Shown here: piece by piece, positions 2,240 through 19,038 of the stretch
Layout: every line of letters begins with the position of its first letter
How positions within the stretch are numbered: position 1 is the first letter of the stretch
From: a virus
DNA: 22,817 nt
Strand: one strand, 5' to 3'
Virus record (IMG/VR): IMGVR_UViG_3300013126_000015
Coordinates: 1-22,817 of that record
Translations under genes and position numbers: made by a program
Notes under the pieces: model-generated
Database searches by the model: none
What the model saw: the letters and a program-made list of their open reading frames with translations, nothing else
Told to the model about the DNA's origin: nothing

Positions 2240-2247
2240 AGTATGGA

Positions 2248-2267
2248 GAGTTCCCGCTGCGGTATCT
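2248..2267 (+). repeat. 20-bp dispersed repeat, copy A1
   Basis: GAGTTCCCGCTGCGGTATCT. Identical to 2309-2328 and related to four copies at 9202-9354. It contains the palindrome CCGC-T-GCGG and stands out as GC-rich. Confidence 0.85.
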
Positions 2268-2275
2268 ACATTATG

Positions 2276-2283
2276 TATTTATC
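2276..2283 (-). promoter_or_regulatory. Possible late-promoter motif GATAAATA upstream of HD-GYP
   Basis: GATAAATAC on the minus strand, 37 bp upstream of the HD-GYP start. It resembles the T4 late -10 TATAAATA. The same motif precedes the endonuclease genes ending at 19864 and 22353. Confidence 0.35.
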
Positions 2284-2308
2284 CTGTATTTAATGGTTTC
2301 TTAATGTA

Positions 2309-2328
2309 GAGTTCCCGCTGCGGTATCT
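2309..2328 (+). repeat. 20-bp dispersed repeat, copy A2
   Basis: Exact second copy of the 2248-2267 repeat, 41 bp downstream of its end. Confidence 0.85.
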
Positions 2329-2357
2329 ATGAAATGATGATATGAAACCGAAAGTAG

Positions 2358-3081: not shown

Positions 3082-3109
3082 TTGACAAAAAAATAAAAAT
3101 GTGTATAAT
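3082..3109 (+). promoter_or_regulatory. sigma-70 promoter running into conserved element copy 1
   Basis: TTGACA (3082-3087), 16 bp, TATAAT (3104-3109). No ORF follows before the element at 3143. Confidence 0.7.
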
Positions 3110-3142
3110 AACGTTGTGGGAGAATGGTTGTTATATATAAAC

Positions 3143-3190
3143 GCGAAGCAGCCTTCCGGGACCTCCTGGACTCGTAGTCGGCATCACCCG
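3143..3190. ncRNA. Conserved structured element, copy 1 (strand uncertain)
   Basis: 48 nt nearly identical to 12398-12444 and clearly related to 10131-10176. As plus-strand RNA it folds into TCCGGG-ACCT-CCTGGA followed by GACT-CGT-AGTC and a trailing GGCATCACCCG. In copy 3 the second hairpin is GACC/GGTC, a compensating change. It sits between a plus promoter (3082-3109) and a convergent minus promoter (3239-3267). It is not coding: copies 1 and 3 differ by one base inside the block, which breaks any common frame. RNA or DNA function unknown. Confidence 0.5.
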
Positions 3191-3238
3191 TACATCCTCA
3201 TTTAATTTCCTTTTACCCTTTCCTTTTAATCTGGGTAT

Positions 3239-3267
3239 ATTATTTCATATAATGCTCTAGATGTCAA
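3239..3267 (-). promoter_or_regulatory. Minus-strand sigma-70 promoter facing element copy 1
   Basis: On the minus strand TTGACA (3262-3267), 17 bp, AATAAT (3239-3244), with the same ATGAAATAATAT context as other promoters in the window. It would transcribe leftward through the element. No minus-strand gene follows. Confidence 0.6.
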
Positions 3268-3303
3268 GTGGTATTTTGAAAAAAATATTGCTAAAATGAA
3301 TGA

Positions 3304-3331
3304 TTGACAAAATGGGTTGATCATGTATACT
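3304..3331 (+). promoter_or_regulatory. sigma-70 promoter for the AAA+ ATPase
   Basis: TTGACA (3304-3309), 16 bp, TATACT (3326-3331), upstream of ATG 3364. Back to back with the minus promoter at 3239-3267. Confidence 0.75.
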
Positions 3332-3363
3332 ATATTAAAACATCAAGATGAATTGGAGCAAAT

Positions 3364-4254
3364 ATGTTTGAGCATATTACGTATCGTATTATTGGACCAT
3401 CTGACGGTAAGCAGCTTGTGAGTACTGGAAGAGAGAATGCTATAAAGGTGATGGATAATGTTATCACCAATGTAGAAACAGATGAAGAGATAATAGAGAG
3501 GATGCGTGTACGGTTTAATGTATTGGTTGACATGACCAAAGCGGTAAAGAAGGGTCATGTTAGATCGATGATTGTATCGGGACCTCCAGGAGTAGGCAAA
3601 TCATTTGGAGTTGAACAAGAATTAAGTAAGAATAAACTGATAGCTGAATTGGCCAGTAATGAATCATTGAAAAAATATGATATTGTAAAAGGATCAATGA
3701 CAGCATTAGGATTGTATGCTAAATTGTATCAATATAGACATGATCGTAATGTATTAGTGTTTGATGATTGTGATGAAATATTCTGGGATGTGGTATGCAT
3801 GAATTTATTAAAGGCAGCATTAGACAGTTCTAGAACCAGAAGGATAAATTGGTTAGCTGATAGTAACATGTTGCGGAAAGAAGATATCCCACATTCATTT
3901 GATTTTCATGGTGGAATTATATTTATTACTAATATGGATTTTGAAAAAGCCAGTCCAAAAATGAAACCACATGTAGAGGCATTGGAATCACGAAGTCATT
4001 ATTTAGACTTGACAATTAAGACAGAACGTGAGAAGATGTTAAGAATAAAGCAGATAATCATGGATGGAATGTTAGATGATTTAAGCTTGACAGACAACCA
4101 AAAGGATGATATCATAACTTATATAACTGATAACAAAACGAGATTGAGAGATTTATCATTAAGAACGGTATTAAAGACTGCTGGATTAGTAGCATCATTT
4201 CCTGATAGATGGCAATCTGTAGCGGAAATGACAATGATTAAAAAGAGCCGATAG
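3364..4254 (+). CDS. AAA+ ATPase
   Basis: 296 aa. Walker A is GPPGVGKS (residues 73-80), Walker B is VLVFDDCDE (130-138), and sensor 1 is the Asn of IIFITNMD (about 190), followed by SR at 210-211 as a possible arginine finger. The helical lid domain spans about 220-296. It lacks the extra motifs of helicases and of clamp loaders, so it is an AAA+ remodelling ATPase of a phage type whose substrate I cannot name. The N-terminal 60 residues precede the core and may bind the partner. It starts after GGAG and is followed, 10 bp on, by the 4265 gene before a strong terminator, so the two form an operon and probably work together. Unlike the ATPase at 5286 it is not of the MoxR type. Confidence 0.85.
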   Translation: MFEHITYRIIGPSDGKQLVSTGRENAIKVMDNVITNVETDEEIIERMRVRFNVLVDMTKAVKKGHVRSMIVSGPPGVGKSFGVEQELSKNKLIAELASNESLKKYDIVKGSMTALGLYAKLYQYRHDRNVLVFDDCDEIFWDVVCMNLLKAALDSSRTRRINWLADSNMLRKEDIPHSFDFHGGIIFITNMDFEKASPKMKPHVEALESRSHYLDLTIKTEREKMLRIKQIIMDGMLDDLSLTDNQKDDIITYITDNKTRLRDLSLRTVLKTAGLVASFPDRWQSVAEMTMIKKSR

Positions 4255-4264
4255 GTACAATAGT

Positions 4265-4672
4265 ATGAAACCATTAGCTATACTGAAACAATTATCAGAA
4301 CATGAAACTGATGTAATCAATCATAAATTCATTACTGAACATGAAATTACGGTATCAGCTGATGTTTATTGGAATTGGTTCAAACAATTTAATATAGTAA
4401 AGGTTCATCATAGGGATAATGGGTTATCATTATATTTTGATATCCAGGAATCATGTGACAAGTTTATGGAAGTACTTTTGCGGCATGAGCTTACTATATC
4501 GAAAGAATATTTTGACAAGATACCTGATGATATGATAGAATCAGAATATCATCAGGTATTTAACATGATTGAAACGGTACCGGTAGATTTAGTATATATT
4601 ATATGTTTACCAACTAATAAAAGATTACAATTACGTGATCATGCACGACAACAAGTTGCTCCCTGGTTCTAG
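4265..4672 (+). CDS. Protein of unknown function, operon partner of the AAA+ ATPase (135 aa)
   Basis: 135 aa, mixed alpha/beta, no signal peptide, no membrane helix, no family recognised. Features visible: MKPLAILKQL start, a WNWFKQFNIV aromatic stretch near residues 36-45, and a C-terminal LQLRDHARQQVAPWF basic-aromatic tail. It starts 10 bp after the ATPase stop with AGGT upstream and ends inside the stem of a Rho-independent terminator. Position makes it a likely substrate adaptor or regulator of the ATPase; that is inference from context only. Confidence 0.7.
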   Translation: MKPLAILKQLSEHETDVINHKFITEHEITVSADVYWNWFKQFNIVKVHHRDNGLSLYFDIQESCDKFMEVLLRHELTISKEYFDKIPDDMIESEYHQVFNMIETVPVDLVYIICLPTNKRLQLRDHARQQVAPWF

Positions 4673-4714
4673 ATAATTAATTGTCTCCTTATGGAATTAT
4701 CTAGAACCTTTTTT
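4665..4714 (+). terminator. Rho-independent terminator
   Basis: Perfect 14-bp stem, GGTTCTAGATAATT (4665-4678) with AATTATCTAGAACC (4695-4708), followed by six T. The stop codon of the 4265 gene lies in the 5' arm. Confidence 0.95.
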
Positions 4715-4718
4715 GGAG

Positions 4719-4747
4719 TTGACATGATATATGAATCATGTTAATAT
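4719..4747 (+). promoter_or_regulatory. sigma-70 promoter for an ORF-less transcript
   Basis: TTGACA (4719-4724), 17 bp, TAATAT (4742-4747), immediately after the terminator. The next 100 bp hold no ORF but a nested hairpin. Confidence 0.6.
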
Positions 4748-4753
4748 AAGAAT

Positions 4754-4832
4754 ACATCAACGCACTTTCGAATATATCACTATGATGGTATATTGGTAGC
4801 AAGGTCCAATCATAGTTGGATTAAAGTGTAAT
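4754..4832 (+). ncRNA. Candidate structured small RNA or leader
   Basis: From the expected start of the 4719 promoter the sequence folds as two nested stems. The outer stem is GCACTTT (4762-4768) with AAAGTGT (4823-4829). The inner is ACTATGATGG (4779-4788) with CCAATCATAGT (4806-4816) and one bulged A. A 17-nt loop is closed by GG/CC. A second promoter begins at 4851, so this transcript either ends here or forms a long leader for the 4914 gene. No known RNA family recognised. Confidence 0.4.
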
Positions 4833-4850
4833 AAACTATGAAACAAATAG

Positions 4851-4879
4851 TTGACAACAGATTAAAAACGTAGTATCAT
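4851..4879 (+). promoter_or_regulatory. sigma-70 promoter for the 4914 gene
   Basis: TTGACA (4851-4856), 17 bp, TATCAT (4874-4879). The -10 and leader are duplicated at 5240-5292. Confidence 0.75.
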
Positions 4880-4920
4880 TTAAATATACCTTAACAACAA
4901 CGGAGCATTCCAAATGAGTA
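4868..4920 (+). repeat. 53-bp direct repeat (promoter -10, leader and start codon), copy 1
   Basis: Identical to 5240-5292. It covers the spacer end, -10, 5' leader, Shine-Dalgarno (CGGAG) and the first codons ATGAGTA. The two copies bracket the 4914 gene. Confidence 0.95.
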
Positions 4921-5237
4921 TTACTGTAGAATTTAGTAAAGATATTGCTGATAATGAAATAATGACGTGGAAAATAAATGGTGTGATTCATAAAGAAGAT
5001 GGACCTGCCATTATATGTGAAAATGGATATCAAGAATGGTATCTCTATGATCAGTTACATCGTTTAGATGGCCCAGCTATTATTCATCCACAAGGATATA
5101 ATGAATGGTATTATAATGGAAAACTTCATAGAATGGATGGAACGGCACTGGATCATCCTCATGTAAAAAAATGGTATATCCACGGTACTGAGTTAACTGA
5201 ACAACAATTTAATAAATTTATCTTGACAATAATCTGA
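4914..5237 (+). CDS. MORN-like HRxDGPA repeat protein (107 aa)
   Basis: 107 aa with about four approximately 20-residue units, each G-x-x-x-x-W-Y-x-x-(N/D)-x-(L/I)-H-(R/K)-x-D-G-(P/T)-A: IHKEDGPAII, LHRLDGPAII, LHRMDGTALD, then a final KKWYIHGTELTEQQF. The C-terminal ELTEQQFNKFI tail resembles the ELEKLQFWI tail of the two genes at the left end. Function of this phage repeat class is unknown. It is held between two identical copies of the leader, so it looks like a cassette inserted in front of, or copied from, the MoxR gene. Its last codons (ILTII-stop) double as the -35 box of the next promoter. Confidence 0.8.
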   Translation: MSITVEFSKDIADNEIMTWKINGVIHKEDGPAIICENGYQEWYLYDQLHRLDGPAIIHPQGYNEWYYNGKLHRMDGTALDHPHVKKWYIHGTELTEQQFNKFILTII

Positions 5238-5251
5238 ATACGTAGTATCAT
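5223..5251 (+). promoter_or_regulatory. sigma-70 promoter for moxR-like gene
   Basis: TTGACA (5223-5228), 17 bp, TATCAT (5246-5251). The -35 lies inside the 3' end of the 4914 ORF. Confidence 0.75.
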
Positions 5252-5292
5252 TTAAATATACCTTAACAACAACGGAGCATTCCAAATGAGTA
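5240..5292 (+). repeat. 53-bp direct repeat, copy 2
   Basis: Second exact copy of 4868-4920, ending in the start of the MoxR gene. Confidence 0.95.
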
Positions 5293-6383
5293 AAGAAGTA
5301 GAAATCGTAACAAGAGCAGTTGGACCAAATGGTGCGAAACGCGCATTGCGCAGAGCATTCAAAGCCCAACGTCCAATTTTCCTATGGGGTGCTCCTGGAC
5401 TGGGTAAATCAGATATTATTAAACAATTGGGTTATGAACTGGAAGCTCCGGTTATTGACATTCGATTGTCACTGTGGGAACCCACCGATATCAAGGGTAT
5501 TCCATACTTCAATCCTGAGTCACATACGATGGAATGGGCACCACCAATGGAATTGCCCAATGAAGAGTTTGCATCGAAACATGATAAAGTTATCTTGTTT
5601 CTGGATGAAATGAACTCTGCAGCACCATCAGTTCAAGCAGCTGCATATCAGTTGGTATTGAACCGTAAAGTCGGTACCTATACCTTGCCAGACAATGTAT
5701 TGTTGGTTGCTGCTGGTAATCGTGATGCTGATAAAGGTGTTACTTACCGTATGCCAGCACCATTGGCAAATCGTTTCGTTCACTTGGAAATGAAAGTTGA
5801 TTTCGACGATTGGTTCCAATGGTCAACATTGAATAAAATTCATAAAGATGTTGTGGGTTTCTTGACCTTCTCTAAAAAGGATCTGTATGATTTTGATCCT
5901 AAAAGTTCAAGTAAAGCATTTGCAACACCACGTTCATGGTCATTTGTATCAGAACTGTTGTTCGATGATGATGAAGATGTCAACGTATTGACTGACCTGA
6001 TTGCTGGTTCAATTGGTGAAGGTCTTGCAGTCAAGTTTATGGCACATCGTAAGATTGCAGGTAAGTTGCCTGATCCACGTGACATTTTGACTGGTAAAGT
6101 AACCAAGTTGCAAACCACTGAAATTTCAGCGATGTATTCATTGACTATCAGTTTGTGTTATGAACTGAAAGAAGCCAGTGACAAAAAAGATAAAGACTGG
6201 AACAAATATGTCAACAACTTCTTCAAATTTGTCATGGGCAATTTTGAAACAGAGTTGGTAATCATGGGTACCAGATTGGCACTGACACAATATCAATTGC
6301 CATTCGATCCAGATGACATTGATTGCTTCGATGATTTCAATGATCGCTACAGCAAGTTTATCGCAGCTTCACAAAGTAGATAA
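5286..6383 (+). CDS. MoxR-family AAA+ ATPase
   Basis: 365 aa. Walker A is GAPGLGKS (residues 35-42). The MoxR-typical W-x-P-T-D-I-K-G stretch follows (64-71), then Walker B VILFLDEMN (102-110), sensor 1 in VAAGNRD (about 145) and ANRF with a likely arginine finger at R163. The C-terminal lid and an acidic tail follow. MoxR ATPases work with a von Willebrand A (VWA) partner to fold, activate or disassemble a target; the very next gene encodes such a partner. Codon use is less AT-rich at third positions than in the neighbours (many GGT, GTT, TTG, CCA), which could mean high expression. A terminator closes the gene, and a fresh promoter drives the partner. Confidence 0.92.
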   Translation: MSKEVEIVTRAVGPNGAKRALRRAFKAQRPIFLWGAPGLGKSDIIKQLGYELEAPVIDIRLSLWEPTDIKGIPYFNPESHTMEWAPPMELPNEEFASKHDKVILFLDEMNSAAPSVQAAAYQLVLNRKVGTYTLPDNVLLVAAGNRDADKGVTYRMPAPLANRFVHLEMKVDFDDWFQWSTLNKIHKDVVGFLTFSKKDLYDFDPKSSSKAFATPRSWSFVSELLFDDDEDVNVLTDLIAGSIGEGLAVKFMAHRKIAGKLPDPRDILTGKVTKLQTTEISAMYSLTISLCYELKEASDKKDKDWNKYVNNFFKFVMGNFETELVIMGTRLALTQYQLPFDPDDIDCFDDFNDRYSKFIAASQSR

Positions 6384-6401
6384 TTGGATTACATTATAGC
6401 A

Positions 6402-6430
6402 GAATGGGGCAGATAATGCCCCATTCTTTT
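6402..6430 (+). terminator. Rho-independent terminator
   Basis: GAATGGGGCA (6402-6411), 5-nt loop, TGCCCCATTC (6417-6426), then TTTT. It lies between the MoxR and VWA genes. Confidence 0.9.
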
Positions 6431-6431
6431 A

Positions 6432-6460
6432 TTGACAAAATAACAGAATGTTGCTATAAT
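6432..6460 (+). promoter_or_regulatory. Strong sigma-70 promoter for the VWA gene
   Basis: TTGACA (6432-6437), 17 bp, TATAAT (6455-6460) with TGC before the -10: consensus at both boxes. Confidence 0.9.
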
Positions 6461-6487
6461 TAAATAATAGTAAACGGAGACAACAAC

Positions 6488-7657
6488 ATGTCAAGAGCAA
6501 TTGAATCAGTAGCAGATAAATTAACGACAGCAAAAGTAAAATTGCTGTTTAGTCATCCATTTTTTGGAAATCTTGCTACCAGACTAAAAGTAAAAGATGC
6601 ATCAGAATGGTGCAATACATTAGCAACTGATGGTCGTAATTTATATTACAATCATGAATTTCTTGACAAATTGTCAATTAATGAAATCGAATTCGGGGTT
6701 GCTCATGAGCTATTGCATAATGTGTTTGACCATATGCGAAGAGTTGATAATCGTGATCGGAAGATTTGGAACTTTGCAACCGACTTTGCAGTAAATGGTC
6801 AATTGGTTCGAGATAAGATTGGAACGGTACCACATACCATCAATATCTTACATGATGCAAAATATTATGGAATGGGTTCAGAAGAAATATATGATGAACT
6901 CATTGAAAAACATAAAGACATGTTGGATAAGTTGGGACAATTGTTAGATGATCATATTGATTGGTCTAATGAAGATGGTAATGCTGATCCTAATCAACCG
7001 ACTTATACCAAAGAAGAATTGCAAGCCATTCGGGATGAAGTGGTTGAATCTGTGATTCAGGCATCACAAACAGCTGGTAATGTTCCAGCCGAGATTGCCC
7101 GATTGATTAAAACGATGACAGAACCAAAAATGAATTGGAGAGAGGTTCTAAGGAATCAAATTCAATCTATTTTGAAAAATGATTTCACATGGCAAAGACC
7201 ATCACGAAAAACGATGGCATATGGTATTTACCTACCATCATCAAATCATGATGAAACCATTGACATTTGTATTGCAATTGATATGTCAGGAAGTATTACA
7301 GATCAACAAGCTGGTATCTTCTTGAGTGAAATTCAAGGCATTATGGATGAATATAAAGAGTACAAGATTAAACTTTGGACATTTGATACCAAAGTTTATA
7401 ATGAACAAGACTTTTCATCTGATCAAGGTGATGATTTATCTGACTATGAAGTCATTGGAGGTGGTGGAACATCATTCGAATGTAACTGGGAATATATGAA
7501 AGAAAATAATATTGAACCTAAAAAGTTCATTATGTTCACGGATATGTATCCAAATTCCAGTTGGGGCGATGAAGATTACTGTGACACTATATTTTTGGGT
7601 CATGGAACAACTTCAATTGTTGCTCCATTTGGGACCACTATTTATTACGAAGATTGA
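6488..7657 (+). CDS. VWA-domain protein with N-terminal zincin-like metallopeptidase domain
   Basis: 389 aa in two parts. N-terminal, about 1-110: FGVAHELLHNVFDH carries the HExxH zinc motif (H73, E74, H77), then NFATDFAVN with a candidate third ligand D99, as in the DUF2201-type putative metallopeptidase domain. Linker about 130-240, partly charged helices. C-terminal VWA-like domain about 255-389: MIDAS residues DMSGS (265-269), T328 in GGGGTSF, and D352 in MFTDMYP. This architecture pairs with MoxR ATPases, here the gene just upstream; the ATPase would remodel or load the VWA/peptidase on a target. The target in a phage infection is unknown. The 3' end overlaps the minus-strand HNH gene by 13 bp. 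Confidence 0.88.
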   Translation: MSRAIESVADKLTTAKVKLLFSHPFFGNLATRLKVKDASEWCNTLATDGRNLYYNHEFLDKLSINEIEFGVAHELLHNVFDHMRRVDNRDRKIWNFATDFAVNGQLVRDKIGTVPHTINILHDAKYYGMGSEEIYDELIEKHKDMLDKLGQLLDDHIDWSNEDGNADPNQPTYTKEELQAIRDEVVESVIQASQTAGNVPAEIARLIKTMTEPKMNWREVLRNQIQSILKNDFTWQRPSRKTMAYGIYLPSSNHDETIDICIAIDMSGSITDQQAGIFLSEIQGIMDEYKEYKIKLWTFDTKVYNEQDFSSDQGDDLSDYEVIGGGGTSFECNWEYMKENNIEPKKFIMFTDMYPNSSWGDEDYCDTIFLGHGTTSIVAPFGTTIYYED

Positions 7658-8406
7658 TTTTTATTATAATCCTCATATAATTCTTCTATAGTTTTATGTG
7701 AGGATTTATGTTTCTTATAATTATCTTTATCAGAAATCATTCTGAGATTAGAAATATCGGATAAAATATTAATAGGAACATCATTTAGGAAACCATCGGT
7801 GACACTGTAAATATGGTCAAGATGATAATATTTACCACGTAATCCATCAGGGTCAATAATATGTTTGTTTCTTTCATATTGAGTATTAGCATATTGTTGA
7901 GCACGATGTCTATATTGTAGACGAGTCAATCCATCTATAGTATACGTTTTATTTTTATATACTTCTTTCCAATATTGTTTTTTTGAATTAGAAATTTGTT
8001 GTCTGACTTTTGGTATATAGGCTGGATTTGAAACGCCATAATTTTTCATAGTTGTTTCAATTTTCTTCAATTTGACACTTTCTAATTGAGATGCGTTGCC
8101 AACGCCTAATAATGTTTTCATATCATTCATTGCACAGGTACTATTACAATACCTATGATATTCTCTAGGTGTGTGTTTTCTAAATGATATTTCTTTACCA
8201 CATGATAAACATCCTGGTCGTTGTTTGATATTATAGGTGTAACAATATAAACGTTCATATAAAGAACACTTGCCAAGAAATGAAGTTTGTGATACAATAG
8301 TATTATACAATGATGGATATTTAAGTTTAAAATGATACTCTCGCACGGTGTGATATATGGTATCTAATCCATGAGATATTAAAAATTGTTCTACTTTGCT
8401 TGCCAT
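7645..8406 (-). CDS. HNH homing-type endonuclease with N-terminal zinc finger
   Basis: 253 aa. A Cys4-type zinc finger (C66-x2-C69 and C87-x3-C91) is followed by ETTMKNYGVSNPAYIPKVRQ (about 117-136), the YGVxNP module common in phage endonucleases and thought to help DNA binding. The HNH core is YYHLDHIYS (H195, D197, H198), SNLRMIS (N220) and KDNYKKHK (N229, H233). Free-standing, antisense to its neighbours, and ending inside the VWA gene, as expected for a mobile endonuclease dropped between genes. Own minus promoter at 8434-8462. No intron boundaries were seen. Confidence 0.85.
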   Translation of the reverse strand: MASKVEQFLISHGLDTIYHTVREYHFKLKYPSLYNTIVSQTSFLGKCSLYERLYCYTYNIKQRPGCLSCGKEISFRKHTPREYHRYCNSTCAMNDMKTLLGVGNASQLESVKLKKIETTMKNYGVSNPAYIPKVRQQISNSKKQYWKEVYKNKTYTIDGLTRLQYRHRAQQYANTQYERNKHIIDPDGLRGKYYHLDHIYSVTDGFLNDVPINILSDISNLRMISDKDNYKKHKSSHKTIEELYEDYNKNQSS

Positions 8407-8433
8407 AATTGTTAACCTATGTTATAATATACT

Positions 8434-8462
8434 ATTATAGACAAAAAATTAATATGATACAA
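8434..8462 (-). promoter_or_regulatory. Minus-strand sigma-70 promoter for the HNH gene
   Basis: Minus strand TTGTAT (8457-8462), 17 bp, TATAAT (8434-8439). Confidence 0.65.
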
Positions 8463-8493
8463 CTATCTACTATGAAGATTAATAAATACTGTC

Positions 8494-8691
8494 ATGAAAC
8501 AGTATAATATTACCCTTCACTATCAAGAACCCTTACGGGATGACTATGGGTTTCCACGCTTCGGAGAGAAGGTCGTGGAAATCCTATCAACCAATATGAA
8601 TTATGTTTATTCTACATTAGATAAAATGTTTGGTAAAGGTAATTATGATATAACAAAAATATCTGAAACAATGGTTGACAATTCTAAATAA
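8494..8691 (+). CDS. Small protein of unknown function (65 aa)
   Basis: 65 aa, soluble, slightly acidic, with a P-L-R-D-D-Y-G-F-P-R-F-G segment near residues 13-24; no family recognised. No Shine-Dalgarno precedes ATG 8494, which is unusual in this window. AATAAATACT lies 10 bp upstream, similar to the T4 late -10, so its expression may differ from its neighbours. The last codons (VDNSK) overlap the -35 of the next promoter. Confidence 0.6.
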   Translation: MKQYNITLHYQEPLRDDYGFPRFGEKVVEILSTNMNYVYSTLDKMFGKGNYDITKISETMVDNSK

Positions 8692-8703
8692 TTCATGTAT
8701 CAT
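8675..8703 (+). promoter_or_regulatory. sigma-70 promoter for the 8732 gene
   Basis: TTGACA (8675-8680) inside the preceding ORF, 17 bp, TATCAT (8698-8703). Confidence 0.65.
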
Positions 8704-8731
8704 TAAGACTAATAAACAATACAGGTGATTT

Positions 8732-8980
8732 ATGACAGATACATTTATTGCAACTGGTATGGGTAGGGTTAATGGTAAATTAAAACTACGTTGGTCTAAT
8801 GATCCAGGATTCTGTTTAACACAGTATAAATCACGTGGTGAGAAAGATGTCATCATGATTGAATTATCTCAACCATTGACTAAGGTTGGTTGTGTTCGAT
8901 ACATGAAACAAATGGTATCAGAATTTCATGATCAAGAACATCTTCAAGTTATCGATCAATATCTTGAAAAACATTTATAA
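8732..8980 (+). CDS. Small protein of unknown function (82 aa)
   Basis: 82 aa, no membrane segment. The N-terminal half looks beta-rich with a GMGRVNGKLKLRW stretch, the C-terminal half helical (VGCVRYMKQMVSEFHDQEHL). No family recognised. AGGTGA lies a proper distance before ATG 8732 and a promoter is 30 bp upstream; the 8994 gene follows after 13 bp and probably shares the transcript. Confidence 0.65.
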   Translation: MTDTFIATGMGRVNGKLKLRWSNDPGFCLTQYKSRGEKDVIMIELSQPLTKVGCVRYMKQMVSEFHDQEHLQVIDQYLEKHL

Positions 8981-8993
8981 TTAAAATAACAAT

Positions 8994-9197
8994 ATGCGAT
9001 ATGATAAAGATTCAGTAAAGATTCTAATTAAACAAGCTACCACCATATTCATGGATGATAAACTCTATGAAATCAATTGGTGTGATGATGATCAATTCCA
9101 GGCTACAGATGAAAATGGAATCCCTGATATCTTTTGGTATGAAGATATTAATATCAATGAAGTATTAATATATAAGACTACTCTACTAAACCCATAG
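8994..9197 (+). CDS. Small acidic protein of unknown function (67 aa)
   Basis: 67 aa, strongly acidic in the middle (INWCDDDQFQATDENGIPDI), no family recognised. No separate promoter and no good Shine-Dalgarno; it is probably translated from the 8675 promoter transcript. A four-copy 20-bp repeat array starts 5 bp after its stop. Confidence 0.55.
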   Translation: MRYDKDSVKILIKQATTIFMDDKLYEINWCDDDQFQATDENGIPDIFWYEDININEVLIYKTTLLNP

Positions 9198-9201
9198 ACG
9201 A

Positions 9202-9354
9202 GAGTTCCCGCTGCGCTATCTCTATACTGGGTATTATATACCAAGAGTTCCCGCTGCGCTATCTAGCGATGCTCAATTGTGGTAGGTTCCCGCTGCACTA
9301 TTGACATAACCATGTCATATATGATATAATATAATAGAGTTCCCGCTGCTACAT
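9202..9354 (+). repeat. Cluster of four 20-bp repeats
   Basis: Units at 9202-9221 and 9245-9264 (both GAGTTCCCGCTGCGCTATCT), 9283-9302 (degenerate, TAGGTTCCCGCTGCACTATT) and 9337-9354 (GAGTTCCCGCTGCTACAT). Spacers are 23, 18 and 34 bp and unrelated. All share GTTCCCGCTGC. Two identical relatives are at 2248 and 2309. Irregular spacing and absence of cas genes exclude an ordinary CRISPR. The last unit lies just before the Shine-Dalgarno of the 9369 gene. Confidence 0.9.
9301..9330 (+). promoter_or_regulatory. sigma-70 promoter inside the repeat cluster
   Basis: TTGACA (9301-9306), 18 bp, TATAAT (9325-9330), between repeat units 3 and 4, in front of the 9369 gene. Confidence 0.7.
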
Positions 9355-9368
9355 ATGAGGATAAGTTA

Positions 9369-9632
9369 ATGTTCAAAAAGATTAAAACATTTTTCGTTGG
9401 ATTACCATTATCAGAACGTCCTGATGTTCCATGTGGTGATAAAGCAGAACATTACTATTGGACAGATGATCGGTTAATGTGTCCCAATTGTTTGTCAATT
9501 AAATTGAAAGAAAAAGCTCAAATTCAATTGAGATTGGATACTGAACGGGAGAATGAACGGAAGATGAACGAATATGAGATATTATCAGATATGATAGCAG
9601 CTAAGGTATTGGCAAGGTTGAATGATAAATGA
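9369..9632 (+). CDS. Small zinc-ribbon-like protein with a charged helix (87 aa)
   Basis: 87 aa. Cysteines at residues 22 and about 38-41 (VPCGDKAEHYYW, then LMCPNC), with H28 nearby, could bind zinc. The rest is one long charged helix (about 42-85, rich in Glu, Arg, Lys) likely to form a coiled coil. Family not known to me. The start follows GAGGATAAG. Its TGA overlaps the next ATG (ATGA at 9629-9632), so the two genes are coupled. Confidence 0.65.
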   Translation: MFKKIKTFFVGLPLSERPDVPCGDKAEHYYWTDDRLMCPNCLSIKLKEKAQIQLRLDTERENERKMNEYEILSDMIAAKVLARLNDK

Positions 9633-9892
9633 TGGCACTTGAAGAGACCATGCCATATATTGATTTGATGACTATCATATATGCTGCAGAACAGGAAAAT
9701 GCTAATATCGATTTTGCCATCTTTACCCAATATGAAAATAATATCAGGGGATTAATACATTATCTGTATTTTCGTCAGCAAATGTTGGGACAAGATAACT
9801 ATCATCTTGAAGATGTTACCATTGAATTATTTTTCCATGATTATACTGACATTGAATGGTACAACACATTCAAAGAATTTCTCAATAGATAA
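9629..9892 (+). CDS. Small acidic protein of unknown function (87 aa)
   Basis: 87 aa, acidic and aromatic (ELFFHDYTDIEWYNTFKEF near the end), mostly helical by appearance; no recognised family, no signal or membrane segment. The start overlaps the stop of the 9369 gene (ATGA). A Fur-box-like repeat begins over its stop codon. Confidence 0.65.
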   Translation: MMALEETMPYIDLMTIIYAAEQENANIDFAIFTQYENNIRGLIHYLYFRQQMLGQDNYHLEDVTIELFFHDYTDIEWYNTFKEFLNR

Positions 9893-9934
9893 TCATTCTC
9901 ATTTTGTATTTTAAATCATAATCATTCTCATTTT
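9889..9934. promoter_or_regulatory. Two Fur-box-like direct repeats
   Basis: ATAATCATTCTCATTTT occurs exactly at 9889-9905 and 9918-9934 (29-bp offset). On the minus strand the first reads TGAGAAT-G-ATTATCT, close to the 7-1-7 Fur consensus TGATAAT-N-ATTATCA. They lie 35-80 bp downstream of a minus-strand promoter (9969-9997). Repressor identity is not established. Confidence 0.45.
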
Positions 9935-9968
9935 AAATGTGAGTTAAGAATATAATTTGCATAATACA

Positions 9969-9997
9969 ATCATATCATAATTTTAAAGAGCTGTCAA
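9969..9997 (-). promoter_or_regulatory. Minus-strand sigma-70 promoter, no gene downstream
   Basis: Minus strand TTGACA (9992-9997), 17 bp, TATGAT (9969-9974). It would make RNA antisense to the 9629 and 9369 genes. Confidence 0.5.
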
Positions 9998-10038
9998 GGA
10001 TTATTTTCAAGATCCTGATTTTTGTGATTGTCACTTCC

Positions 10039-10067
10039 AGTATACCATGAAAAAATAATTTTGTCAA
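10039..10067 (-). promoter_or_regulatory. Minus-strand sigma-70 promoter, divergent from the element-2 promoter
   Basis: Minus strand TTGACA (10062-10067), 17 bp, TATACT (10039-10044). Its -35 and the plus -35 at 10071 form the palindrome TTGTCAAG-T-CTTGACAA. Confidence 0.6.
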
Positions 10068-10070
10068 GTC

Positions 10071-10099
10071 TTGACAACAACGTCGAACTATGCTATAAT
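10071..10099 (+). promoter_or_regulatory. Consensus sigma-70 promoter running into conserved element copy 2
   Basis: TTGACA (10071-10076), 17 bp, TATAAT (10094-10099) with TGC before it. The first transcribed bases form a hairpin, CGAATAT (10108-10114) with ATATTCG (10125-10131). Confidence 0.8.
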
Positions 10100-10130
10100 A
10101 ATAGTAGCGAATATTAGTTTACCTATATTC

Positions 10131-10176
10131 GAGACAACGTTCCGGGACTCCCTGGACTCTTAGCCACCATCACGTG
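10131..10176. ncRNA. Conserved structured element, copy 2 (strand uncertain)
   Basis: Divergent copy of 3143-3190 and 12398-12444. The first hairpin TCCGGG-ACTC-CCTGGA is fully kept; the second is weaker (GGACT-CTT-AGCC), and the trailing part reads ACCATCACGTG. A pyrimidine-rich stretch (catttaaaatccttttta) follows, as in copy 1. A minus promoter at 10225-10253 faces it. Confidence 0.5.
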
Positions 10177-10224
10177 AGCATCATCATTTAAAATCCTTTT
10201 TATCTTTCCCTTTTTGTTGGACAT

Positions 10225-10253
10225 ATTATTTCATATTATCATCTATATGTCAA
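10225..10253 (-). promoter_or_regulatory. Minus-strand sigma-70 promoter facing element copy 2
   Basis: Minus strand TTGACA (10248-10253), 17 bp, AATAAT (10225-10230), same ATGAAATAATAT context as the one facing copy 1. Confidence 0.6.
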
Positions 10254-10276
10254 CAATTATTTTTATTATTTTTTAG

Positions 10277-10304
10277 TTGACAATTGAAATTTTTCCTGTA
10301 TTAT
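10277..10304 (+). promoter_or_regulatory. sigma-70 promoter for the 10331 gene
   Basis: TTGACA (10277-10282), 16 bp, TATTAT (10299-10304), back to back with the minus promoter at 10225-10253. Confidence 0.7.
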
Positions 10305-10330
10305 ATACCTATCTTTTAAATAACGGGATT

Positions 10331-10513
10331 ATGGTCATGGCCAAAATTACAATTAGTTTACCGTTACGTCGATATGCTATGTTTTGGGACAGTATTAGAT
10401 GCCGTAATTATATGATTGTAATATCAGGCAATGATTTAGATTATGCACCACTATGGGGAAATTTTGTTACCTGGGTTGGCGCAATAAAACAACCAACGAT
10501 TATCACAAAATAA
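10331..10513 (+). CDS. Small protein of unknown function (60 aa)
   Basis: I place the start at ATG 10331 because AACGGGA lies six bases before it and the promoter -10 ends at 10304; longer readings would start inside the promoter. The 60-aa product begins MVMAKITISLPLRRY, contains several Trp, Tyr and Arg, and ends with a Thr/Ile/Lys tail. No family recognised and no transmembrane helix long enough to call. The next promoter follows directly after its stop. Confidence 0.6.
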   Translation: MVMAKITISLPLRRYAMFWDSIRCRNYMIVISGNDLDYAPLWGNFVTWVGAIKQPTIITK

Positions 10514-10516
10514 TCC

Positions 10517-10544
10517 TTGACAAGTTTAAAAAATCCTGTATACT
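10517..10544 (+). promoter_or_regulatory. sigma-70 promoter, TCCTG-TATACT class
   Basis: TTGACA (10517-10522), 16 bp ending in ATCCTG, TATACT (10539-10544). Same class as promoters at 19965, 20210, 20760, 21122 and 22694. Confidence 0.8.
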
Positions 10545-10571
10545 AATACCAGATTCAAACGGGAGCATATC

Positions 10572-11231
10572 ATGTTTAACTTTTCATTCACCGCAGTTTC
10601 AAGTAACGTAAAAACTGGCCCTATTCCTGTTACCAGAACAGATAAAAAATCATGTCCAGACTCATGTATCCTTAAAGGTAAAGGTTGCTATGCTGAGGGT
10701 GGCCCGGTTTTAATACACTGGAAAAAACTTGATGATGCTGGTTTATCATTGGATGAATTGGCACGGAAAATTAAAAAATTACCTAAAGGTCAATTATGGC
10801 GTCACAATGAAGCTGGTGATTTGCCAGGGTTTAATGATATGATTGATATAGCACAATTGACCAAGCTAGTTGATGCTAACAAGGGCAAAAAAGGATTTAC
10901 TTATACTCATTACCCTATGGTGCAACATAACATTAAAGCAGTAAAATTAGCAAATGATAGCGGTTTTACTATTAACATGTCATTGAATAACTTGAATGAG
11001 TTATCACAAGCTAAACATTTACCATTGCCTAAAGTGGTCATTTTGCCTAAAGATTCACCTAATAAATTTGAGCATGATGGCGTCACTGTTATGAAATGTC
11101 CAGCTCAAATTAAGGACGAAATGTCTTGTTCAAGATGTAAATTGTGTGCCGATCCTAATCGTAAAATGGTAATTGGATTTGACCCGCACGGTTTTAGAAA
11201 AAATAAAGTAATTGCAATTTCAACCATATAG
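10572..11231 (+). CDS. Conserved cysteine-rich phage/plasmid protein (DUF7227-like)
   Basis: 219 aa. N-terminal motif TGPIPVTRTDKKSCPDSC, then GKGCYAEGGP (C28, C32, C39). The middle has QLWRHNEAGDLPG (74-86) and GFTYTHYP (108-115). The C-terminal motif is CPAQIKDEMSCSRCKLC (C176, C186, C189, C192) followed by KMVIGFDPHG. I recognise this as a family spread among phages and plasmids (DUF7227, from memory). The two Cys clusters could hold zinc or an iron-sulfur centre, and the conserved RHNEAGD and THYP blocks could be catalytic, but no activity is known to me. Start after CGGGAG; full length for the family as I know it. Confidence 0.8.
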   Translation: MFNFSFTAVSSNVKTGPIPVTRTDKKSCPDSCILKGKGCYAEGGPVLIHWKKLDDAGLSLDELARKIKKLPKGQLWRHNEAGDLPGFNDMIDIAQLTKLVDANKGKKGFTYTHYPMVQHNIKAVKLANDSGFTINMSLNNLNELSQAKHLPLPKVVILPKDSPNKFEHDGVTVMKCPAQIKDEMSCSRCKLCADPNRKMVIGFDPHGFRKNKVIAISTI

Positions 11232-11238
11232 GTGTAAT

Positions 11239-11496
11239 ATGTTAGCCAACACAAAACAAACAAGAAAGATTGTCAATGATACATTAAACAGTGTATTGTA
11301 TAATTATTGCAATAAGACTTGGACAGATCGGGATCATCGAACGATTGATGATGGCAAGCGAATTGTTGTATTTGAAATAATGTCAAACAATTTAGATGTT
11401 CTGAGTCGAGAAATTAAACAACGATTTATCAATGCTGGATTTGACAATCGTATCACGGTATCACAAAAATATATTCGAATAGCATCAATATTGTGA
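11239..11496 (+). CDS. Small basic protein of unknown function (85 aa)
   Basis: ATG 11239 is preferred over an upstream ATG at 11212 because AGGTG precedes it properly and 11212 lies inside the previous gene. 85 aa, basic, with helix-forming N-terminus (TKQTRKIVNDTLNSVLYNY) and a DGKRIVVFEIM strand; no family recognised. It follows the cysteine-rich gene by 7 bp and shares its promoter, so it may be a partner. Confidence 0.6.
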   Translation: MLANTKQTRKIVNDTLNSVLYNYCNKTWTDRDHRTIDDGKRIVVFEIMSNNLDVLSREIKQRFINAGFDNRITVSQKYIRIASIL

Positions 11497-11525
11497 TTGA
11501 CAATTAGCTGGGTATATGAAATAAT
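11497..11525 (+). promoter_or_regulatory. sigma-70 promoter with TGGGTAT/ATACCCA inverted repeat
   Basis: TTGACA (11497-11502), 17 bp, AATAAT (11520-11525). TGGGTATAT (11509-11517) and ATATACCCA (11524-11532) flank the -10. Same arrangement at 13799. Confidence 0.7.
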
Positions 11526-11557
11526 ATACCCACTTTCAAACAACTAGGACAACGATC

Positions 11558-11899
11558 ATGACTACCATCACAAAATCATTCAATGAAGTTCATGCTGAAG
11601 CATTGGTTGCCGCACGTAAGGCAGGATTAGAGTACTTTAACACTGTATTGAATGGTGTTGATCAATATGCTTGCGGTTTTGCATGGGTAAGATTGCCTGA
11701 AGTGAAACTTAATACCAAACTTGGTAAACAGATTGCTGCTTGTGGATTTTCAAAATCATACAATAAAGGTGTGGAATTATGGAATCCATCCGGTTTACAT
11801 TGTCAAAATATTGACGCTAAAGAAGCTGGTGCTAATGCCTATGCTACGGTAATGCAACAAAATGGATATGTTGCTTATTCAGAATCAAGATTAGATTAA
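11558..11899 (+). CDS. Conserved phage protein, CGFAWV family (113 aa)
   Basis: 113 aa. Motif order YACGFAWVRLPEVKL (38-52), CGFSKSYNKGVELW (62-75), then HCQNIDAKEAGANAYATVMQ and a terminal SRLD. I recognise this pattern (CGFAWV, kGg, Q-x-x-D-x-K-E-x-G, SRxD end) from small proteins found in many phages and plasmids; its function is unknown to me. AGGAC precedes ATG 11558. Own promoter, monocistronic. Confidence 0.75.
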   Translation: MTTITKSFNEVHAEALVAARKAGLEYFNTVLNGVDQYACGFAWVRLPEVKLNTKLGKQIAACGFSKSYNKGVELWNPSGLHCQNIDAKEAGANAYATVMQQNGYVAYSESRLD

Positions 11900-11907
11900 A
11901 ATAATAC

Positions 11908-11936
11908 TTGACAAATAGCCAAGGATGGCTTATCAT
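11908..11936 (+). promoter_or_regulatory. sigma-70 promoter with AGCCA-AGGA-TGGCT operator-like repeat in the spacer
   Basis: TTGACA (11908-11913), 17 bp, TATCAT (11931-11936). Inverted repeat AGCCA/TGGCT at 11917-11930 fills the spacer. Other members at 12895, 15583 and 21412. Confidence 0.75.
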
Positions 11937-11961
11937 ATGTCCATACTTTAGGGGATGTGTC

Positions 11962-12096
11962 ATGACTGAACAAGAATTTATCGATACCTTGGTTACAATC
12001 TGGTCAACTGGTGATGCAGAATTGTTGAAATCATTTATTGAAATTCACAAAGATGTTTGGTACAATGTCATTAAATCGTTTGGATTTTTGGGATAG
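11962..12096 (+). CDS. Small protein of unknown function (44 aa)
   Basis: Start ATG 11962 chosen for its Shine-Dalgarno (AGGGGATG) and position after the promoter; earlier in-frame codons lie inside the promoter. The product MTEQEFIDTLVTIWSTGDAE continues as a helical, amphipathic chain ending in FGFLG. No family recognised. The next gene begins 4 bp after its stop. Confidence 0.6.
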   Translation: MTEQEFIDTLVTIWSTGDAELLKSFIEIHKDVWYNVIKSFGFLG

Positions 12097-12100
12097 TGCC

Positions 12101-12286
12101 ATGACTACTACTGAATTGATGAAACTAGAACCAATCAGACACCAATTGCGTGTTCAAGCAATAGCCGCAATGAATGAAGGTGATTATGTGACGATCATTT
12201 CATATATTGCTGTTCCACGTGGAACAAGTTATATATCAGGACAAACATTTAATCATTGTCATTTAGTTGCAGTACATCACAATTAA
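12101..12286 (+). CDS. Small protein of unknown function (61 aa)
   Basis: ATG 12101, four bases after the previous stop, with GGGATAG upstream; an earlier ATG in frame at 12038 lies within the preceding gene and has no better ribosome site. 61 aa, N-terminal helix (TTTELMKLEPIRHQLRVQAI), C-terminal beta-like GTSYISGQTF and a His-rich end (HCHLVAVHH). Unknown family. Second gene of the 11908 promoter unit. Confidence 0.55.
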   Translation: MTTTELMKLEPIRHQLRVQAIAAMNEGDYVTIISYIAVPRGTSYISGQTFNHCHLVAVHHN

Positions 12287-12290
12287 AAAC

Positions 12291-12319
12291 TTGACAAATT
12301 ATTTAAAATATGAAATAAT
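12291..12319 (+). promoter_or_regulatory. sigma-70 promoter running into conserved element copy 3
   Basis: TTGACA (12291-12296), 17 bp, AATAAT (12314-12319). The leader contains GATAGG/CCTATC hairpins (12335-12377) before the element. Confidence 0.65.
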
Positions 12320-12397
12320 ATAGTCATAGTAATCGGATAGGTAATCAATCCTATCGTGGCATCCAAGAGGGGATAGGTGCGTTTATAAAAAATATAT

Positions 12398-12444
12398 GCG
12401 AAGCAGCCTTCCGGGACTTCCTGGACCATGGTCGGCATCACCCG
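12398..12444. ncRNA. Conserved structured element, copy 3 (strand uncertain)
   Basis: 47 nt, nearly the same as 3143-3190. Hairpin TCCGGG-ACTT-CCTGGA, then GACC-AT-GGTC where copy 1 has GACT-CGT-AGTC (U-A replaced by C-G), then GGCATCACCCG. The distance between blocks is one base shorter than in copy 1. Convergent minus promoter at 12468-12495. Confidence 0.5.
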
Positions 12445-12467
12445 AACCACCTCTTTACTATGGTTAT

Positions 12468-12495
12468 AGTATACACTAAAATTTTTTATTGTCAA
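12468..12495 (-). promoter_or_regulatory. Minus-strand sigma-70 promoter facing element copy 3
   Basis: Minus strand TTGACA (12490-12495), 16 bp, TATACT (12468-12473). An RNA from here would begin a few bases upstream of AAAGAGGTGG and run through the element. Confidence 0.65.
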
Positions 12496-12518: not shown

Positions 12519-12546
12519 TTGACATCTTAAATTTTTCCTGTATATT
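12519..12546 (+). promoter_or_regulatory. sigma-70 promoter for the 12580 gene
   Basis: TTGACA (12519-12524), 16 bp ending TTCCTG, TATATT (12541-12546), back to back with the minus promoter at 12468-12495. Confidence 0.75.
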
Positions 12547-12579
12547 ATGTTTCATCAAGTAACCAACCAGGAAAATAAA

Positions 12580-12891
12580 ATGTCAACCATCATCATCAAA
12601 TCAGTTTCATATGATAACTTCACTCATGAAGAATATCGTGATCTTACCTTTAGACCATCGCATGAATTGGTTAGAAAGCATCTACCACGTTATAAAGTAT
12701 CTAAACATATCATTGTTCCGCAATATGCCGAAGCAGCAGCTGAAGAAGCATTTGATCTAACCAACAATCCTTCACGTCAAGATGAACGTGAAGAAAAATA
12801 TGGTAATGGTAAATCATTATCAGTTGGTGATGTTGTCGAAGTTAATGGTGTGAATTATCTTTGTGAATCATTCGGTTGGGCAATACTTTAA
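12580..12891 (+). CDS. Conserved phage/plasmid protein, SLSVGDVV family (103 aa)
   Basis: ATG 12580 follows CAGGAAAATAAA; an upstream ATG at 12547 lies at the -10 and is unlikely. 103 aa. The C-terminal half, EAAAEEAFDLTNNPSRQDER, GKSLSVGDVVEVNG and YLCESFGWAIL, matches a small family I know from phages and plasmids (E-A-F-D-x-T-N-N-P ... R/K-S-L-S-V-G-D-V-V ... GW). Function unknown. The N-terminal 45 residues with several His and Lys are less typical. Confidence 0.75.
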   Translation: MSTIIIKSVSYDNFTHEEYRDLTFRPSHELVRKHLPRYKVSKHIIVPQYAEAAAEEAFDLTNNPSRQDEREEKYGNGKSLSVGDVVEVNGVNYLCESFGWAIL

Positions 12892-14571: not shown

Positions 14572-14620
14572 TTAACCATTATCTCGATGGTCGTTTTAAC
14601 AATTTACAAAGGTGAATATC

Positions 14621-15574
14621 ATGAATACAAATACAAACGTGGTCATTGGTACATTAAACAATGTACTAGAGTTTAAATCAAATTATCTTCGTTCATTACT
14701 GGATACATTGAACGTTACCCTTGACAAAGATGGATACACGGTATTCACGGATGATACATTCCATTTTGTCTATGATGTTGGTGAAGAGGGTGTTGGTGCT
14801 GAAGTCAATTTAAATAACGATCTTAACAATACTGTTGTAACTGGAGCGGGTGATGATGTTATCCTAATTGACGGAAATCATCATAACGTGGTGTTATCTG
14901 GGGGTGGTGGAGATTATATTGTCACTGGCATTGGGGATGATTATATCCATGGTGGGAATGGTGATGATTATATCAAATCATCATTCGGCAATGATCTTAT
15001 CATTGGTGGTAATGGTGATGACAGTATCTTTGCAGATGGTAATGCAGTTGTTTCAGGTGGTAATGGTGAAGATTGGATTATTGTATCTGGTCAAGCATCA
15101 GTTGATGCCGGGAATGGCGCAGATTATGTGTTTACGGGGGATTACAACGATACGGTTTATGGTGGTCGTGGTGATGATCAACTCGAAACAGGTAGCGGTG
15201 ATGACCTAGTATTCGGTGACAATGGGGATGATTGCATCTACGGTGATGCCGGTAATGATACCCTATATGGTGGTCGTGGTGATGATTTGCTGGATGGTGA
15301 TGCCGGTAATGACATTTTGATCGGTGGTAACGGCAACGATGAATTGAGTGGTGGCACCGGAAATGATTTATTCATCTTCGATAAAAATGATGGACATGAT
15401 GAAATCTATGATTTCGATGTTGGTGATTCAATTCAAGCTGGTGATGGTGCAACACTGTTCGATAATGAAGATGGTTCTTATACCATGCACTACGGTAACA
15501 CAACAGTTGAAATTGACATTACCGGATCAGTTCACAACATCACTCTGGTAGATGGTTTCTTTGTAGCATCTTAA
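14621..15574 (+). CDS. RTX-type calcium-binding repeat protein (317 aa)
   Basis: ATG 14621 follows AAAGGTG; a GTG at 14612 lies in the ribosome site itself. Residues 1-70 are a non-repeat head. From about 73 to 258 the protein is built of glycine/aspartate nonapeptides of the RTX class G-G-x-G-x-D-x-(hydrophobic)-x, for example GGNGDDYIK, GGRGDDLLD and GGNGNDELS, which bind Ca2+ and fold as a parallel beta roll. The last 55 residues (FIFDKNDGHDEIYDFDVGDS and on) resemble the C-terminal cap of RTX proteins. No signal peptide and no enzyme domain is visible. RTX C-termini usually direct type I secretion; a calcium-stabilised fibre or adhesin is an alternative. Unusually large and repeat-rich for this gene neighbourhood. 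Confidence 0.88.
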   Translation: MNTNTNVVIGTLNNVLEFKSNYLRSLLDTLNVTLDKDGYTVFTDDTFHFVYDVGEEGVGAEVNLNNDLNNTVVTGAGDDVILIDGNHHNVVLSGGGGDYIVTGIGDDYIHGGNGDDYIKSSFGNDLIIGGNGDDSIFADGNAVVSGGNGEDWIIVSGQASVDAGNGADYVFTGDYNDTVYGGRGDDQLETGSGDDLVFGDNGDDCIYGDAGNDTLYGGRGDDLLDGDAGNDILIGGNGNDELSGGTGNDLFIFDKNDGHDEIYDFDVGDSIQAGDGATLFDNEDGSYTMHYGNTTVEIDITGSVHNITLVDGFFVAS

Positions 15575-18611: not shown

Positions 18612-18692
18612 ACCCTCGTAGTTTAAATTGCAATAAAAACACCAAGCTCATAACTTGCGAGATTCTCAGTTGGATTCTGAGCGGGGGTACCA
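18612..18692 (+). tRNA. tRNA-Met (CAT), with encoded CCA
   Basis: Acceptor ACCCTCG (18612-18618) pairs with CGGGGGT (18682-18688), one G-T pair. Anticodon loop CTCATAA gives CAT; T arm CTCAG-TTGGATT-CTGAG; ACCA at the 3' end. The D arm is loose (GTTT/AAAC with a 12-nt loop lacking GG) and the anticodon stem has one mismatch, so this is a divergent tRNA. Confidence 0.75.
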
Positions 18693-18734
18693 TAAAAATA
18701 GTTTGCATGTTCTACCAAAATATGCTATAATGTA
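18688..18734 (+). repeat. 47-bp repeat (tRNA 3' end plus promoter), copy 1
   Basis: From TACCATAAAAATAG through the -10 and ATGTA; repeated at 18829-18875 with few differences. Each copy joins a tRNA CCA end to the promoter of the next tRNA. Confidence 0.85.
18703..18731 (+). promoter_or_regulatory. sigma-70 promoter for tRNA-Leu
   Basis: TTGCAT (18703-18708), 17 bp, TATAAT (18726-18731) with TGC (extended -10). Confidence 0.8.
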
Positions 18735-18750
18735 TAAATAAACAGAATAT

Positions 18751-18833
18751 GACGGTGTGTTGGAATGTATACAATCACGACTTAAAATCGTGCGCCTTCG
18801 GGATTGAGAGTGCGAGTCTCTCCACCGTTACCA
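18751..18833 (+). tRNA. tRNA-Leu (TAA), with encoded CCA
   Basis: Acceptor GACGGTG (18751-18757) with CACCGTT (18823-18829); anticodon arm CACGA-CTTAAAA-TCGTG, anticodon TAA. A long variable arm (CGCCTTCGGGATT) is typical of class II tRNAs; T arm GAGAG-TGCGAGT-CTCTC; then ACCA. Length 83 nt. Confidence 0.9.
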
Positions 18834-18875
18834 TAAAAATAGTTTGCATGTTCTATAAAAATATGCTATAATGTA
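18829..18875 (+). repeat. 47-bp repeat, copy 2
   Basis: Second copy of 18688-18734, between tRNA-Leu and the next tRNA. Confidence 0.85.
18844..18872 (+). promoter_or_regulatory. sigma-70 promoter for the third tRNA
   Basis: TTGCAT (18844-18849), 17 bp, TATAAT (18867-18872), extended -10. The tRNA starts only 6 bp after the -10, so the 5' end is close to the transcription start. Confidence 0.8.
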
Positions 18876-18877
18876 AT

Positions 18878-18950
18878 AGCGGAGTAGAGAAGCAGTTATC
18901 TCGTTAGGCTCATAATCTAAAGACCGTGGGCGCACATCCCACCTCCGCTA
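18878..18950 (+). tRNA. tRNA with CAT anticodon (Met or lysidine-modified Ile)
   Basis: Acceptor AGCGGAG with CTCCGCT, perfect; D arm GAGA/TCTC; anticodon arm TTAGG-CTCATAA-TCTAA; T stem GTGGG/CCCAC with an unusual CGCACAT loop. CCA is not encoded, unlike its three neighbours. Two CAT tRNAs in one cluster suggests that one is the Ile2 (AUA) type. Confidence 0.75.
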
Positions 18951-18962
18951 CATTTCATAAAT

Positions 18963-19038
18963 GCGGATATGGTGTAAGTAGAAACATGAGAGTCTTCCAA
19001 ACTTTAGTCGAGAATGCAATTTTTCTCTATCCGCTCCA
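18963..19038 (+). tRNA. tRNA-Gly (TCC), with encoded CCA
   Basis: Acceptor GCGGATA (18963-18969) with TATCCGC (19028-19034), perfect; anticodon loop CTTCCAA, anticodon TCC; T stem GAGAA/TTCTC with an 8-nt loop; T plus CCA at the end. 76 nt. It ends 2 bp before the minus-strand endonuclease gene. Confidence 0.8.

Follow-up and report, generated by a model that had tools for sequence, protein, structure and literature searches.

What is the 47-nucleotide (nt), G+C-rich block that occurs three times, each time between facing promoter-like sequences, in the virus record IMGVR_UViG_3300013126_000015? The window analysed here (22,817 nt) is the first 22.8 kb of this 102,445-base contig of an uncultivated large bacterial virus, which has a G+C content of 33%. 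A preliminary description had proposed a possibly structured element and left open whether it specifies a small RNA from either strand, a convergent-transcription switch or a DNA target. To us the element looks like a new small regulatory RNA for which the collections searched gave no detectable relative, and transcription from the other strand may keep its synthesis down. The facing-promoter setting is real and specific, and an RNA read from the + strand is now favoured over a - strand RNA and over a DNA site.

The copies, the promoter-like sequences and the covariation are read directly from the DNA. The pattern TTCCGGGACnnCCTGGAC occurs exactly at 3154, 10140 and 12409, always on the + strand and without a mismatch in its 16 fixed bases; the chance expectation from window shuffles is 0.01, and three copies were found in 0 of 100 shuffles, so that the three places first reported hold good. 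The complete elements span 3144-3193 (copy 1), 10130-10179 (copy 2) and 12399-12447 (copy 3). In an alignment of the three blocks 33 of the 47 columns are invariant, and the G+C content of the blocks is 58-63%. Copies 1 and 2 are 71% alike across 195 nt, from the rightward promoter through to the leftward promoter; copy 3 is 85% like copy 1 over 66 nt, where the common part is the core only and the copy 3 flanks are unrelated. A one-base length change between copies had been reported; it is confined to copy 3, and copies 1 and 2 are of equal length. No plausible open reading frame (ORF) is shared across the three copies on either strand, and a coding explanation (a + strand FRDxLD frame or a - strand SPGxPG frame) was rejected, the frame being inconsistent across the copies. 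There is no fourth copy in the whole record.

The consensus fold of the three-copy alignment consists of two hairpins. Hairpin 1 (UCCGGG-ACnn-CCUGGA; 3155-3170, 10141-10156 and 12410-12425) is kept unchanged in all three copies, as the preliminary description had it, and because it never varies it is uninformative by covariation. It includes a G-U pair that is possible on the + strand only and would be A.C on the - strand. After a linker of 5-6 nt, one base shorter in copy 3, comes hairpin 2 (3177-3193, 10163-10179 and 12431-12447; columns 34-38/45-50 of alignment A6), a 5-base-pair (bp) stem with one bulged base that presents the invariant loop CAUCAC (3182-3187, 10168-10173 and 12436-12441). 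Hairpin 2 reads GUCGG-CAUCAC-CCG(N)AC in copies 1 and 3 and GCCAC-CAUCAC-GUG(A)GC in copy 2; i.e. three of the five pairs carry compensating changes on both sides and no pair is broken. Column shuffles reached three or more compensating pairs without a broken one in 0.03-0.1% of cases (P about 0.001, with three sequences only). The + strand consensus energy was -13.4, compared with -5.1 (standard deviation 2.2) for column-shuffled alignments (3000 shuffles, P 0.001-0.002). On the - strand, the consensus fold was no better than chance against column shuffles (P 0.21-0.32). Folding the full predicted + transcripts at minimum energy gives both hairpins for copies 1 and 2.

The suggestion of structure is therefore supported, for the + strand only and with a different second hairpin from the one first named. 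That one (columns 28-29/33-34) had been credited with a U-A to C-G change between copies 1 and 3; no both-sides change is counted there, and it requires a 2-nt loop in copy 3. The conserved CATCAC, described as a tail, is retained as a sequence and is instead the loop of hairpin 2. Two further candidates were dropped: an extra 5' hairpin in the predicted RNAs, which differs in each copy, and an N4-type promoter hairpin GCGAAGC, which copy 2 does not have. Separately, the leader of the copy 3 RNA (12326-12391) contains GATAGG, CCTATC and GGATAGG, which allow two mutually exclusive, attenuator-like pairings.

To describe the setting of the element, we call a predicted sigma-70-like promoter strong when at least 11 of its 12 hexamer bases match. 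At each locus such a promoter points rightward at the element: 3082-3109 (TTGACA-16-TATAAT, 12/12), 10071-10099 (TTGACA-17-TATAAT with TG, 12/12) and 12291-12319 (TTGACA-17-AATAAT with TG, 11/12). A second one, on the - strand, points back at it from the right: 3239-3267 (TTGACA-17-AATAAT with TG, 11/12), 10225-10253 (11/12, with TG) and 12468-12495 (TTGACA-16-TATACT, 11/12). The predicted rightward starts lie near 3116, 10106 and 12326 and the predicted leftward starts near 3232, 10218 and 12461, giving start-to-start overlaps of 116, 112 and 135 nt. Facing promoters with overlapping transcripts, as in a convergent antisense pair, are thus found at all three loci, judged from promoter-like sequences only. 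The element begins about 25-75 nt past the predicted rightward start in every copy. Each leftward promoter also stands back-to-back with the + strand promoter of the next gene (3304-3331, 10277-10304 and 12519-12546), with 24-37 bp between the -35 boxes. The genes in question encode a P-loop (SGPPGVGKS) protein of PHROG 1250 (3364-4254, + strand), a 60-amino-acid ORF ending at 10513, and the SLSVGDVV protein (12547-12891). The layout reported earlier, with a plus promoter to the left, a minus promoter to the right and then a further plus promoter with its gene, was recovered at every locus, with scores of 11-12/12 for the facing pair. All four promoter hexamers are identical between copies 1 and 2, with diverged spacers; the copy 3 promoters have different sequences and an unchanged layout.

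This layout is rare. The contig has 44 strong rightward promoters, all within its first 30.3 kb, and 30 strong leftward promoters, seven of which are inside the rightward region; three of these seven stand directly right of the elements. Within the first 31 kb, no position besides the three element loci has a facing strong pair within 100 nt, and the sole other strong convergent pair with less than 260 nt of overlap (25280/25588) encloses a coding-like stretch and no element. The nearest named relatives of the virus are PA5oct-like jumbo phages of Pseudomonas (Wroclawvirus, Arenbergviridae), with 54% amino-acid identity in the ATPase and 56% in the terminase. In 1.36 Mb of relatives, PA5oct included, there was one convergent strong pair, in a coding-looking stretch, and a further 1.2 Mb of loci, holding 506 strong promoters in the gene direction, gave the same count and setting. 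Since strong convergent pairs are near-absent from relatives, the facing-promoter cassette appears to have arisen within this phage lineage. Two more strong leftward promoters occur beside copy 2 (9969-9997 and 10039-10067), with no leftward gene nearby.

We consider it likely that the element functions as RNA at all, from one strand or the other. The specific reading that we favour, and hold tentatively, is that each block is a gene for a non-coding phage RNA, the three being paralogues, and that the rightward RNA acts in trans. Here we infer transcription, the strand of action, antisense control and a partner, as follows. The strong host-type sigma-70 promoter at the left of each copy would give a rightward RNA, which would fold into hairpin 1, the 5-6 nt linker and hairpin 2 presenting CAUCAC. 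Hairpin 1 and the loop would be recognised by a common partner, either a host RNA or a protein, making the product a trans-acting small RNA. With a constant loop on a varying stem, the probable contact is one that all three copies have in common, not a copy-specific antisense contact of the kind seen in the ColE1 or R1 plasmids. The opposing promoter would produce an antisense RNA (loop GUGAUG) overlapping the rightward RNA fully over 112-135 nt, and its transcription would limit the rightward RNA through collision and duplex formation. As the promoters are back-to-back, antisense synthesis may increase upon switching on the next gene.

Several observations weigh against this reading. The evidence comes from three sequences on one metagenomic contig, and copy 2 is the sole source of covariation. 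When partners were reshuffled within the chosen structure, the result was only marginal (19/500), because three sequences allow no more. Single copies fold with unexceptional energy, and the 47-nt block alone does no better than shuffles; the minimum-energy fold of the copy 3 transcript does not contain hairpin 2. As would suit a trans-acting small RNA, a strong promoter is present at each copy, but no intrinsic terminator was found near the rightward or the leftward RNA, which leaves the 3' end unexplained. No phage translation start stood out as a target when compared with shuffled RNAs, and no relative of the element was seen outside this phage in the collections searched.

If the RNA does not act in trans, it might act in cis as a nascent leader at the start of three early transcripts: the two hairpins would bind the elongating RNA polymerase and confer resistance to termination, pausing or collision with the polymerase coming from the opposing promoter, as putL and putR do in phage HK022. 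The put RNAs bring about terminator read-through by way of the beta' zinc-binding domain. Put, a two-stem RNA of ~70 nt found directly after PL (PMC9378689), resembles the predicted RNA here: it too occurs in several copies, forms two hairpins and follows closely on strong early promoters in a phage that uses host RNA polymerase. In all three copies of our element, a strong host-type promoter is followed, at about +25 to +75 from its predicted start, by two stem-loops with a short linker, and no terminator lies between the element and the downstream genes, as a leader would predict. However, those genes each have their own strong promoter, so that read-through is unneeded, and terminators are few in the rightward region anyway. 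The long bulged stems of put contain 21 Watson-Crick pairs in its ~70 nt, compared with 11 pairs here, and our model R2 found no match in HK022. The cis reading also leaves unexplained the conserved opposing promoter, which has not been described for put. We regard a cis-acting leader as the main alternative, though an unlikely one.

Rather unlikely too, and a little more so, is a more elaborate arrangement in which the cassette is a lineage-specific RNA switch present three times: the output of each structured regulatory RNA would be set by the facing antisense promoter, itself wired back-to-back to the neighbouring gene's promoter, so that the locus would sense its own convergent transcription, and all three RNAs would address the same partner via the invariant loop. 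In the plasmid and phage antisense RNA pairs ColE1 RNA I/II, R1 CopA/CopT and P1 c4, the loops differ between systems and so give specificity. The overlapping complementary RNAs with complementary hairpin loops of those pairs resemble the predicted CAUCAC and GUGAUG loops here; in contrast, the loop of our element is constant and its stem varies, and no replication or immunity gene is involved.

A double-stranded DNA site between the promoters (a protein operator, a roadblock, or a replication or packaging site) would account for three nearby copies in the same orientation, for an island of about 60% G+C in a 33% G+C genome and for hairpin 1 as an imperfect palindrome. Its letters would be expected to be fixed, yet three pairs of helix 2 changed on both sides with pairing kept, and the palindrome is mismatched in every copy; we think such a site improbable. 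Slightly more doubtful still is a reading in which the leftward antisense RNA does the work, either as a leader or as a gene for a small peptide, under regulation by the rightward RNA. It would have AAAAGGA-type ribosome sites and a 5-codon ORF with a stop codon overlapping another start (UGAUG, within the hairpin 2 loop). On the - strand, copies 1 and 2 do share a ribosome-site-like stretch, an AUG, five codons, the UGAUG and similar short second ORFs. However, copy 3 lacks the first start and its second frame is shifted; the - strand consensus fold is no better than shuffles and A.C breaks hairpin 1 there; and copies 2 and 3 are not closely followed by a minus-strand gene. Least probable of all is that there is no function, i.e. 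a recent duplication whose resemblance reflects descent and whose covariation arose by chance: with only three sequences, copies 1 and 2 (71% alike across 195 nt) do resemble each other about as much in their flanks as in the core, but in copy 3 the core (85% to copy 1, 66 nt) and the facing promoters are retained amid unrelated flanks, the hairpin 1 block and CATCAC are unchanging, and the compensation and the promoter placement are both improbable.

We looked for relatives of the element. Rfam 15 gave no family above threshold, with only tRNAs in the window and, when each locus was searched with lax settings, nothing but chance hits well short of the cut-off; the earlier remark that no RNA family matches holds for this release. 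Covariance models run on 43, 33 and 50 related records (overlapping sets, about 90 phage records together) produced no real match, and neither did direct model searches of HK022, PA5oct and eight relatives. The preliminary description had looked to such a search for more copies; none was added, and support rests on the three paralogues. Two matches were rejected, one of 15.9 bits (G086) in a repetitive stretch where the common part is mainly the CATCAC-loop hairpin, and one of 11.7 bits (G042) with hairpin 1 only in coding-like sequence. Matches to the core pattern in IMG/VR (49, 36 and 43 stretches) were nearly all coding-like chance matches in GC-rich genomes, and none shares the flanking element. 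A pattern scan of bacterial genomes gave 0 matches, blastn against phages and plasmids gave only E values of about 1 or more, and the element was not found beside other phages' homologues of its flanking genes. At the DNA level, no match to named phages was found for the window. Metagenomic contigs include numerous closer, yet still distant, relatives (ATPase up to 78%, terminase 58-66%). Close relatives carrying the element may exist beyond the collections searched; the contig may be a piece of a larger genome, with extra copies in the missing part.

The non-coding RNAs known from large virulent phages are few, and hardly any has a function. The virulent Pseudomonas phage PAK_P3 makes two abundant ~100-nt intergenic RNAs, sRNA1 and sRNA2, and many antisense RNAs, of unknown function (PMC4933390). 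Compared by description, those RNAs are known from RNA sequencing; here there are three paralogues with a covarying hairpin, each placed under facing promoters. PA5oct carries a long non-coding RNA annotated from RNA sequencing; in contrast to our contig, it lacks any match to the element, and none of its strong promoters converge on a non-coding stretch. With three paralogues in a single genome, an unchanging loop on a covarying stem and a constant convergent arrangement of promoters, the element is a concrete candidate, for which structure, strand and partner are directly testable. Should the RNA prove to be under the control of the facing promoters, a phage would offer a compact natural case of convergent-transcription control.

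Other repeats occur near the copies. A second G+C-rich repeat, GAGTTCCCGCTGCG(C/G)TATCTA(GCGATGCTCAATTGTGGTAG), forms three intergenic clusters with a spacing of 39-61 nt (window 2247-2329 and 9201-9357, contig 26630-26750), two of which lie to the left of copies 1 and 2 at a distance of ~0.9 kb. A degenerate fourth copy of the element was sought at 26.6-27.6 kb, behind the third GTTCCCGCTGC cluster, and none was found there. Fur-box-like repeat pairs (ATAATCATTATCATT / ATAATCATTCTCATT), 28-29 nt apart, lie left of copies 1 and 2 on opposite strands (2876-2945 and 9887-9932), and TGATAATNATTATCA has 12 matches of at least 12/14 in the contig, compared with 2-7 in controls.

Elsewhere, the phage encodes an RTX calcium-binding nonapeptide repeat protein (Pfam HemolysinCabind; 14612-15574). 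Among the tRNA genes at 18612-19035, one found by Rfam (18963-19035) was missed by ARAGORN and two found by ARAGORN fall below the Rfam threshold. Further along the contig (35916-41659, - strand) is a cluster of at least 10 paralogous proteins of ~80 amino acids.

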